This document shows positions 25,532 through 29,887 of a DNA stretch of 32,860 bases, piece by piece. The stretch comes from Oscillospiraceae bacterium (GTDB lineage: Bacteria; Bacillota; Clostridia; UMGS1810). The stretch's first letter is position 1, and the number at the start of each line of letters is the position of its first letter. The notes beneath the pieces were generated by a model. It was given only the letters and a program-made list of their open reading frames with translations. It was not told where the DNA came from and did not search any database. A program made the translations under genes and the position numbers. The stretch lies in NCBI GenBank assembly GCA_015068825.1, contig SVJU01000021.1, positions 1 to 32,860 on the forward strand. Reading direction: 5' to 3'.

Positions 25532-27616
25532 TTATACTCCTCTGAAATAATGTCCTCTTGTAAATTCAAAATTGCACTTACTACCACTTTTGTAAAGAGC
25601 AATAACATTTTTGATTTCATCCACATTCTCATCTGTAAAAGCAAAACGCAGATATTTTACTTTTGTATTTTTAAGTTCATTTAATTTATCAGCCATAAAC
25701 AAAGGTGATGAATTAAAAATATGACTCGTACAGGTGAAAGAATCCTGCAAAACAGGAAACCTTTTTTTCATTCTGTCTTCAAGATATAAAAATTTATCTT
25801 CCCTGCAGCCACACTTACCAAAAGCACTTTTATAAATACACGCTTTTGTATTCATAACTTCTATTTTGCCATATACTAAAATTTCGCAATCAATGCTCTT
25901 TTTATTGCACTCAATCTGAGTAAGTGTAAGTTCATTTGAAAGCATAATAGCTTTTAGTCCATATTTTTTGTATTCATTCAAAGAAATTGAATTCGTTATA
26001 TTAAGATTTGCCTCACCATATATTTCCTTGTTTTTGCAAAGCGGTATCTGTCCTATATTTGATATAGAAACTTTTTTGATATCAGATAAATTAATTTTTT
26101 CTTTTCTTATTACTTTTGGAAGCACGCAAACAATTTTTTGATTATTTTTTAATAACTCTTTATTTTTAATATAAAGGTTATACGGAACAAAAATTTTATC
26201 AAAAAATTCATTTTCCATAACATAATCAAGCTGCTCTTTTGTGCAAACTGAAGCAGTAAATTTATGCTCACCAAAACTATTTTTACAAAAACAGAATTCA
26301 AAATTTTTATATTCTTTTTTTCTGTTTGATAAAAGAATTTTATCTTCAAGCAAAATTACAGCTTGCCTTCTTATTTCATTCAAATCTTTTTTTGATACAA
26401 AAAGATTATCATCAATTTCACACTCAAATTCATCAAGACAAAAAGCAGTATCGCCAAGACGAGAAAACTGTGACTTTAAGCTGTCAAAATCAAGCGGAGC
26501 ATTATTTGCACTCTGAGGTGTTACATTGGATAAATATTCTATGCAGTTATTTTCATTATCAAAAAGTCTAACAAAAATTTCTTTATTTTTCTTTACAGAA
26601 ACAAAAGCATTTATTCTTGTTTTCCTCGCATCAAGCCTGGACATTTCCTCTGCTTTTTTCAAAACTTTGTTATCTATATTTTTATAAACCAAATCATTGT
26701 TTTTATCAAAATTAAGCATATTACGGTTTATGTTATTATCAAAATATGCTTTTGTAAAACCGCTGCGACTGAAAATATTTTCAAGCTCCATTAGTGTATC
26801 GTCAGATACACTTCCTCTTTTTACAGCATCAGAATATGCACCTGTTACAAGTGAAACGTATTCTTTATTTTTCATTCTTCCTTCAATTTTTAACGATTTA
26901 ATGCCTATCTTTTTTAGTTGTTCTATTTCGTCTGCAAGACATAAATCCTTTGGTGAAAGAAGATACTTTGAATCTTTAAAAACTTTTTTGCCATCGTAAT
27001 CAATTAAATTATAATTAAGTCGGCAAGGCTGTGCACAAGCTCCTCTGTTACCACTTCTTGAACCTATGATACTACTAAGTAGACATTGACCCGAATAGCA
27101 TACGCAAAGGGCTCCATGAACAAACACCTCAAGCTCCGCATCGGTATTATCAGCTATATATTTTATTTCTTCAAAAGAAAGTTCTCTTGAAAGAACAACT
27201 CTTGAAAAGCCCATTTCCTTTGCAAGTTTTACACCTTCAAGTGATGAAATTGTCATTTGCGTACTTGCATGACAAGGAAAATCAGGAAAATAATCTTTCA
27301 CAATCCTTAAAACAGCCAAATCCTGAATAATAAGCGCATCAACATTTGCCTCATAACAAAATTTTATAAATTCAAAAACTTCTTCAAGTTCATTGTCCAT
27401 AACAAGAGTATTTAAAGTAACATAAACTTTAACATTTCTTAAATGGGCATATTTTACCGCATCTATTATTTCTTCGTTTGTAAAATTTTGTGCATTTTTT
27501 CGTGCACTGAAGGATTTTCCTCCAAGATATATTGCATCTGCACCATTGTTTACTGCAGCTTTAAACGTTTCAAAATCACCAGCAGGCGATAAAACTTCAA
27601 TCTCTTTATTTTCCAT
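25532..27616 (-). CDS. U32 peptidase-family protein (RlhA/TrhP-like, with DUF3656-type C-terminus)
   Basis: 694 residues, the long form of the family. The N-terminal TIM-barrel region has EVLSPAGDFETFKAAVNNGADA and HASTQMT (116-122). The cluster region follows, with C171, C173, C178 (CVCYSGQC) and C194, C198 (RGACAQPC). Residues after about 380 look like the extra domain of RlhA-type members, with a further cysteine group near 605-620. Relatives hydroxylate 23S rRNA (RlhA) or tRNA uridine (TrhP) using prephenate rather than acting as peptidases; which one applies here is not decidable by eye. It overlaps zapA by 11 bases; its SD is weak, suggesting coupled translation. Confidence 0.88.
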   Translation of the reverse strand: MENKEIEVLSPAGDFETFKAAVNNGADAIYLGGKSFSARKNAQNFTNEEIIDAVKYAHLRNVKVYVTLNTLVMDNELEEVFEFIKFCYEANVDALIIQDLAVLRIVKDYFPDFPCHASTQMTISSLEGVKLAKEMGFSRVVLSRELSFEEIKYIADNTDAELEVFVHGALCVCYSGQCLLSSIIGSRSGNRGACAQPCRLNYNLIDYDGKKVFKDSKYLLSPKDLCLADEIEQLKKIGIKSLKIEGRMKNKEYVSLVTGAYSDAVKRGSVSDDTLMELENIFSRSGFTKAYFDNNINRNMLNFDKNNDLVYKNIDNKVLKKAEEMSRLDARKTRINAFVSVKKNKEIFVRLFDNENNCIEYLSNVTPQSANNAPLDFDSLKSQFSRLGDTAFCLDEFECEIDDNLFVSKKDLNEIRRQAVILLEDKILLSNRKKEYKNFEFCFCKNSFGEHKFTASVCTKEQLDYVMENEFFDKIFVPYNLYIKNKELLKNNQKIVCVLPKVIRKEKINLSDIKKVSISNIGQIPLCKNKEIYGEANLNITNSISLNEYKKYGLKAIMLSNELTLTQIECNKKSIDCEILVYGKIEVMNTKACIYKSAFGKCGCREDKFLYLEDRMKKRFPVLQDSFTCTSHIFNSSPLFMADKLNELKNTKVKYLRFAFTDENVDEIKNVIALYKSGSKCNFEFTRGHYFRGV

Positions 27617-27965
27617 TTTTAGCCAACTCTATTTTTAATCTTTGTATTTCGTCTTTAAGATACTCATTTTCTTTTTCACAAATGAGAGCTTTGCTTTTTA
27701 AATTGAAAGCCTCTTCTTTATATTTTTTTAAATCAAGAATTGTTTCATCTAAAAGAGCCTTATTTTTAAAAAGTTCATCTGTTACATTAACAGCAGTAAG
27801 TATGGCAAGCTTCGTTTCATTCAATTTTGGATCTTTCGCCCTGAAATCACGCATTTTTTTGTCAACATTATAGCAAACCTTTTGAATATATTCCTCACTT
27901 TCAACACCCGAAAACGAATAATCATGACCATAAATTCTAAAAGTTGCACTTGTTTTTTCACTCAT
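27606..27965 (-). CDS. zapA: Cell division protein ZapA
   Basis: 119 residues: a small N-terminal globular domain with FRIYGHDYSFSGVESEEYIQKVC and LAILTAVNVTDELF, then a coiled coil (about 70-115) ending in KDEIQRLKIELAKNGK. ZapA bundles FtsZ filaments at the division ring. The frame reaches a GTG at 27974, but GAGG 8 bases before the ATG at 27965 decides the start. It is the first gene of the zapA-U32-NusGII-Gx-maf run and has its own strong promoter. Confidence 0.93.
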   Translation of the reverse strand: MSEKTSATFRIYGHDYSFSGVESEEYIQKVCYNVDKKMRDFRAKDPKLNETKLAILTAVNVTDELFKNKALLDETILDLKKYKEEAFNLKSKALICEKENEYLKDEIQRLKIELAKNGK

Positions 27966-28038
27966 ATTAATCACCTCTTAAATATGAATTTTTATATTAA
28001 TAATTATACAAAACCCCATTTTAGATATTGTCCATCTA

Positions 28039-28067
28039 ATTATCGCATAAAACAAAAAAATTGTCAA
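28039..28067 (-). promoter_or_regulatory. Sigma-A promoter of the zapA operon
   Basis: Minus strand: TTGACA (28062-28067), 17-base spacer ending in TGC, GATAAT (28039-28044), an extended -10 promoter, 73 bases before the zapA ATG. Confidence 0.88.
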
Positions 28068-28114
28068 CTTAATAATCAGCTAAAAAAAGAAGTGTTATGT
28101 AAACTTATTTTTAC

Positions 28115-28177
28115 TTATCCACACACTGTTGTTTATAAAAGTTGCCGTTTTTCCACATATTCACATAGTTATCCACA
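28115..28177 (+). promoter_or_regulatory. Cluster of DnaA boxes
   Basis: Two perfect boxes TTATCCACA at 28115-28123 and 28169-28177, one single-mismatch box TTTTCCACA at 28149-28157, and a two-mismatch ATATTCACA at 28157-28165 that shares base 28157 with it. All face the same way. They lie between the divergent zapA and DUF1858-purA promoters. This is a real DnaA-binding candidate; whether it is a replication, titration or transcription-control site cannot be decided here. Confidence 0.75.
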
Positions 28178-28200
28178 GTTTAACCACGCATTTTCGACAC

Positions 28201-28281
28201 CTTTTTCATAATTATTTTGCAACCAAATTTTTTTATTTAAAAAAATACTTGAATTCTTTTTTAAAAAACTTTACAAAAACA
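28201..28281. other. Very AT-rich tract beside the DnaA boxes
   Basis: About 80 bases almost free of G and C, with long A and T runs (for example around 28228-28246 and 28256-28268). No ORF, hairpin or repeat of note. It could be an easily melted element next to the DnaA boxes, or simply upstream promoter DNA. It forms part of the 402-base gap 27966-28367. Confidence 0.5.
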
Positions 28282-28310
28282 TTGATTTTTTTGTCGTTTA
28301 GGTGTATAAT
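28282..28310 (+). promoter_or_regulatory. Sigma-A promoter of the DUF1858-purA unit
   Basis: TTGATT (28282-28287), 17 bases, TATAAT (28305-28310), 57 bases before the DUF1858 start. A-rich sequence lies directly upstream. Confidence 0.85.
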
Positions 28311-28367
28311 ATTTTCGTATGATGTCATTTAGATAAATTCAAGATACATTTAAAGGAGGTTATCATT

Positions 28368-28571
28368 ATGGCAACTGTTGATAAAAACACCATTATTGCC
28401 GATGTATTAAAAATTGACGCAGGAACTGCACCATTCTTTTTTGAAATCGGTATGCATTGTTTAGGATGCCCATCAGCATCAGGCGAAACAATTGAACAGG
28501 CTTGTATGGTTCACGGTGTTAATGCAGACGAGCTTATTGACAAAATCAACAATTATTTAAAAAATAAGTAA
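28368..28571 (+). CDS. DUF1858 domain protein
   Basis: 67 residues, a small helical domain of the DUF1858 type: TIIADVL at the start, FFFEIGMHCLGCP with C31-x-x-C34, then EQACMVHGVNADELIDKIN. Short stand-alone versions are widespread in anaerobes and related domains are joined to redox proteins, so a thiol or redox-sensing role has been suggested; nothing here proves it. SD AAAGGAGGT. It is co-directional with purA, 44 bases ahead of it, with a palindrome between them. Confidence 0.9.
   Translation: MATVDKNTIIADVLKIDAGTAPFFFEIGMHCLGCPSASGETIEQACMVHGVNADELIDKINNYLKNK

Positions 28572-28603: not shown

Positions 28604-29887
<1,284 letters not shown>

Follow-up and report, generated by a model that had tools for sequence, protein, structure and literature searches.

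DnaA boxes between zapA and DUF1858-purA

The window analysed here is a stretch of 32,860 nucleotides that makes up the whole of one contig (C27) in a 2.0-Mb metagenome-assembled Oscillospiraceae genome, G000, of 62 contigs. Between zapA and a DUF1858-purA pair transcribed in the opposite direction, it carries DnaA boxes, an AT-rich tract and two predicted promoters, as follows (coordinates, strand, feature).

27606 to 27974, minus strand: zapA, cell division protein (Pfam PF05164, E = 4.8e-17)
28039 to 28067, minus strand: predicted zapA promoter, TTGACA-17-GATAAT, also in the genus mate G001
28094 to 28104, minus strand: GTTTACATAAC motif (GTTATGTAAAC on the plus strand), a possible second-protein site, enriched beside the arrays described below
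28115 to 28123, plus strand: perfect DnaA box TTATCCACA, 54 bp before B3
28149 to 28157, plus strand: DnaA box B1, TTTTCCACA, one mismatch, in the register of B1 of the conserved array
28157 to 28165, plus strand: DnaA box B2, ATATTCACA, two mismatches, in the register of B2 of the conserved array
28169 to 28177, plus strand: DnaA box B3, perfect TTATCCACA
28180 to 28188, plus strand: weak DnaA-box-like TTAACCACG, two mismatches
28208 to 28300, strand not applicable: AT-rich tract, 85% A+T, without a DnaA-trio
28282 to 28310, plus strand: predicted DUF1858-purA promoter, TTGATT-17-TATAAT, also in G001
28368 to 28571, plus strand: DUF1858 domain protein (Pfam PF08984, E = 2.7e-21)
28616 to 29887, plus strand: purA, adenylosuccinate synthetase (Pfam PF00709, E = 1.5e-184)

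An earlier, sequence-only reading of this DNA had described four boxes in one orientation within 63 bases, followed by an AT-rich tract at a switch in gene direction. The positions and mismatches of the boxes were confirmed, and exact copies of TTATCCACA occur in the window only at the two plus-strand positions listed. The AT-rich tract is likewise real: the best 80-base stretch 3' of the boxes reaches 86% A+T, a value attained by 0.1% of 80-base windows, which average 67%. Gene directions are also as described: between 2 and 28 kb most genes run leftward, DUF1858-purA runs rightward, and from 29.9 kb on the genes run leftward again. The GTTATGTAAAC motif, which is common to other such clusters, was absent from that reading. 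A known RNA element in the gap was rejected, as an Rfam search of the gap gave no match near threshold and a chance-level match inside genes only.

The boxes exceed what is expected by chance. Same-strand boxes in the 63 bases give a cluster score of 9, compared with a best score of 5 among 200 simulated windows of matched dinucleotide content, none of which reached the observed value; at least three closely spaced boxes are involved. Across the genome, TTWTCCACA occurs 85 times and is rarer than its reversed control (130), and close pairs of it are found at only three places: the window locus, dnaA-dnaN and upstream of rpsB.

We compared the locus with that of the one genus mate in the genome set, G001 (contig JALEIO010000129.1), a metagenome-assembled Oscillospiraceae bacterium. 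There, zapA and DUF1858-purA diverge as in G000 and both predicted promoters are retained, but a stretch of about 190 bp containing all the boxes is missing from the gap. The window copy is therefore not conserved, and with a single genus mate the alignment fits a gain in G000 and a loss in G001 alike. Neither 30 purA loci drawn from the class nor the zapA loci of the family showed a DnaA-box cluster comparable to that of the window. The sequence-only reading had held beforehand that boxes lacking conservation in close relatives would count against it. The window copy does lack such conservation, at G001 and at the purA and zapA loci of relatives, whereas a similar element is present at another place in this genome and in the family. 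The distribution of purA is itself irregular: the gene was not found in most family members, including the 97%-complete G005 (loci L011-L040), and the window PurA is 75% identical to that of G035, a member of another family, with about 40% typical for family member G003. This pattern of identity and distribution suggests that purA was acquired by transfer.

A four-box array in the family

A scan of the G000 genome located a second cluster, on contig C34:

C34:5108-5299 of G000 (L010 1415-1606): full four-box array upstream of rpsB, with GTTTACATAAC on both sides

The four boxes lie on one strand in a register of -20 (B1), -12 (B2), 0 (B3) and +42 (B4), the 42 bp from B3 to B4 corresponding to four helical turns. 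When up to three mismatches were allowed, the pattern matched in 11 of 16 family genomes and in seven others among 391 class genomes, compared with no matches to the reversed pattern in the same 391. The array was found in seven or more genera; an eighth, represented by G008, has the triad only. In a pair scan of the family, the 42-bp box-pair spacing recurred in G000, G001, G003, G006, G012, G014 and G015, with none in the reversed control, and a lone match to the pattern pair at C46 was rejected as lying in coding sequence with its boxes opposed. Per position, the boxes carry 1.56 bits of information and the linker 0.46; as far as the sequences tell, several genera share the spacing of the boxes to the base, while their linkers have diverged.

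The genes beside the array vary. It stands upstream of rpsB in three genomes, and the rpsB array has nearly equal box spacing in three genera (G000, G001 and G002). It stands upstream of ctsR in G003, G006, G008, G010, G012 and G015, and the arrays of G005 and G009 have other neighbor genes. In G000, the contig with the rpsB array also carries ctsR, 5.5 kb beyond the array, so the rpsB and ctsR settings are related. The distance from array to gene is variable, about 320 to 610 bp. We rejected the array as a regulator of rpsB or ctsR because both genes and distances differ among genomes, and its placement before different genes at different distances favors a role as a site over control of one gene. 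Our literature search found no report linking DnaA boxes to rpsB.

Matches outside the family are box-rich places, some of them perhaps convergent. The clearest is in G022 (L167, C185:3924-3991), where tsaD (gcp) and rex flank it and an exact GGTTTACATAA is present. In Bacillus subtilis a strong DnaA cluster adjoins gcp as well (gcp/ydiF; PMC4447404), and on the strength of this one genome it is possible that the position next to gcp is deeply conserved. Within the family, a second and different box cluster lies beside a malQ-like gene in genus g4 (L146 in G010, L158 in G014), which shows that the family has lineage-specific extra clusters in other places as well.

A second motif accompanies the arrays. 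The 11-mer GTTATGTAAAC (GTTTACATAAC) has three exact copies in the 2.0 Mb of G000, one beside the window boxes and two flanking the rpsB cluster. GTTTACATAAC was first picked by comparing these two clusters, so that independent evidence for it comes solely from its recurrence in other genomes. A search within 300 bp of each of 14 arrays, allowing at most one mismatch, gave 15 occurrences of (R)GTTTACATAA; the rate in 435 kb of family sequence predicts 0.33, an excess of about 45-fold. Five exact copies of GGTTTACATAA were found near arrays versus none in the 435 kb. In G000, G001, G002 and G005, a copy of the second motif starts at +93 to +95 from B3.

The window cluster shares part of this arrangement. 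The overlapping triad TCCACATATYCACATANTTWTCCACA occurs at two places in the genome only, the window and C34:5177 upstream of rpsB. In the window it keeps the B1-B2-B3 register of -20/-12/0, and 27 of its 29 positions agree with the array consensus; the (R)GTTTACATAA motif flanks it at 28094-28104. B4, which the rpsB array of G000 has at +42, is absent from the window, where the sequence at 28211 matches 1 of 9 bases. Our reading is that the window cluster would be a lineage-specific (genus- or species-level) second, partial copy of the conserved array type. A neutral pile-up of boxes in an AT-rich gap would sit well with the lack of conservation in the only genus mate, but the simulated windows and the agreement of triad register and second motif with the family-wide array make it quite improbable.

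The similarity between the window and C34 clusters spans 27 bp only. With no plasmid similarity and no four-box match in viral sequence, this led us to reject a copied mobile element. We also considered whether the window could hold the remnant of a plasmid- or phage-type origin built of iterons and DnaA boxes, given that the repeated GGTTTACATAA motifs are iteron-like and that one phage contig has a similar overlapping box run. This reading is hardly credible when set against the lack of any similar plasmid record, of an exact four-box match in viral contigs and of a rep gene nearby, and against the persistence of the rpsB/ctsR arrays in the same chromosomal setting across genera. The phage contig itself is GC-rich (IMG/VR, L224 6504-6529); it carries the overlapping run TTATCCACATATCCACATAGTTATCCACA and further boxes between small genes and the terminase gene.

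DnaA regulates some genes, and the sequence-only reading had proposed that it may control zapA and purA from here. If DnaA regulated transcription of the divergent zapA operon, DUF1858-purA or both, it would couple replication to division or purine supply. The boxes do lie between the two predicted promoters: the one at 28115, nearest to the zapA promoter, is about 48 bp upstream of the predicted zapA -35, and B3 is about 105 bp upstream of the predicted purA -35. Such control is thus possible by position, but no box overlaps either predicted core promoter, G001 keeps both genes and their predicted promoters without the boxes, and the related arrays are found several hundred base pairs ahead of unrelated genes such as rpsB and ctsR. 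On balance we consider it unlikely.

Position of the replication origin

As the sequence-only reading had noted, dnaA and dnaN are not in the window. Both lie on contig C29, in the series dnaA-dnaN-recF-gyrB-gyrA, where 8 boxes with no more than one mismatch each form a separate cluster in the dnaA-dnaN gap. In G005, G006, G007 and G012, this gap contains a clear DnaA-trio (CTACTACTA-type run) and then an AT-rich stretch; in G000 and G001 the trio is degenerate. In Clostridioides difficile, DnaA opens the DNA in the dnaA-dnaN gap (PMC7561715). The window locus does not adjoin dnaA or dnaN as a Firmicutes-type oriC would, and no DnaA-trio occurs in 28060-28330. Local GC skew is positive over purA alone and negative directly after it, in a genome whose 62 contigs give no whole-chromosome skew. 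Given the dnaA-dnaN box cluster on C29, the missing trio and the return of the skew after purA, the window locus is very probably not oriC.

The sequence-only reading had also raised an origin without dnaA, and a replication origin or second origin of this kind would account for the boxes, the AT-rich tract and the gene divergence at the window. The GC skew on the dnaA contig of G000 is not clean. On C34 a sharp switch in GC skew and gene strand coincides exactly with the related rpsB array, and another array is near such a switch on G012:C3; these positions suggest an origin at the array. This suggestion is contradicted in G003, G005 and G008, where the array is not at a strand switch, and the trio evidence favors dnaA-dnaN over the rpsB/ctsR array. 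With the window copy also missing from G001, we rejected oriC at the window, and regard any origin there as very improbable.

Two further observations concern sequences around dnaA. Upstream of dnaA, few or no DnaA boxes are present in most family members (G000, G001, G006, G007, G009 and G011; L085-L095). In the origin region of G005, GTTTACATAAC stands directly 3' of the dnaA stop codon (L082 / L087), which places the motif at an oriC as well. Elsewhere, in three genomes of family f10 (L179, L180 and L181), boxes in a register similar to B2, B3 and B4 lie directly upstream of dnaA, by parA/parB, hinting that the array may derive from an oriC1 half. The G006 array and dnaA are 45 kb apart.

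A probable extra-oriC DnaA-box cluster and known systems

At the level of sequence, the window cluster is distinguished by its boxes, their excess over chance, the family register, the co-occurring motif and its absence from the genus mate. It sits on C27, away from the dnaA-dnaN origin on C29. We think it probable that the segment is an extra-oriC DnaA-box cluster, a second copy of the array, which, perhaps together with a partner protein, sequesters DnaA and delays initiation at dnaA-dnaN. Boxes arranged head to tail at such spacings suit cooperative binding of DnaA, which would occupy the box at 28115 and the triad at 28149/28157/28169 in this way and stay held, lowering free DnaA, and initiation at the dnaA-dnaN origin would then be delayed until enough DnaA had accumulated. 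A putative second protein would bind the (R)GTTTACATAA motifs beside the cluster. DnaA binding, sequestration, the partner protein and the effect on timing are what we infer for this cluster. The sequence-only reading had offered a DnaA titration site among its possibilities, and that proposal gains from the recurrence of the triad and second motif at a family-wide extra-oriC array. The lack of B4 in the window copy and its absence from G001 count against this explanation.

Fixed spacing, drifting linkers and a second motif point to a specific nucleoprotein complex. The array with its motif could serve as a defined DNA bait in a search for the putative partner protein, and we predict that changes in array copy number or position would shift the timing of initiation. 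A bolder proposal, possible though doubtful, is that the family-wide array is a dedicated Clostridia DnaA-control site, with a role like that of datA or DARS, where DnaA held in the fixed four-box register would act jointly with a protein reading (R)GTTTACATAA; the window cluster would be a second, partial copy of it. In a more extreme variant, suggested by the lack of boxes upstream of dnaA in most family members, the array may be an oriC1 half, displaced by tens of kilobases yet working with dnaA-dnaN.

The bipartite oriC of C. difficile (PMC7561715) resembles the window locus in having box clusters with a nearby AT-rich tract, and the f10 register upstream of dnaA extends the likeness. The window, however, has no dnaA, DnaA-trio or double cluster around dnaA, and most family members differ from the bipartite plan by their few or absent boxes upstream of dnaA.

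In Escherichia coli, datA, DARS1 and DARS2 are non-coding DnaA-box sites outside oriC, with conserved spacing and partner sites for IHF and Fis; they also act on the nucleotide state of DnaA. Like them, the site described here is non-coding, extra-oriC and conserved in its box spacing, an analogy at most. Unlike them, it has all its boxes pointing one way at the window and is known from sequence alone. To our knowledge, the Firmicutes have none of Hda, SeqA, datA and DARS for tuning DnaA, and the clusters of B. subtilis are usually viewed as loose groupings of boxes.

B. subtilis has six extra-oriC DnaA-box clusters, the joint removal of which leads to early initiation (PMC5295017, PMC13220808), although their individual effects are mild (PMC5295017). 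The oriC-proximal clusters are attributed to Okumura et al. 2012, as cited in PMC5295017 and PMC13220808. Strong in vitro DnaA sites of this species, and a need for the partner Rok at some of its DnaA sites, are described in PMC4447404. The effect of cluster removal and the Rok-dependent sites make sequestration with a helper protein a fair model for the window cluster. The likeness extends to several intergenic boxes outside oriC, few clusters per genome, a Firmicute host and a dnaA-dnaN origin elsewhere. Compared by description, the family arrays differ in their fixed four-box register across genera and in their second motif. We read the window cluster as a probable extra-oriC cluster like those of B. 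subtilis.
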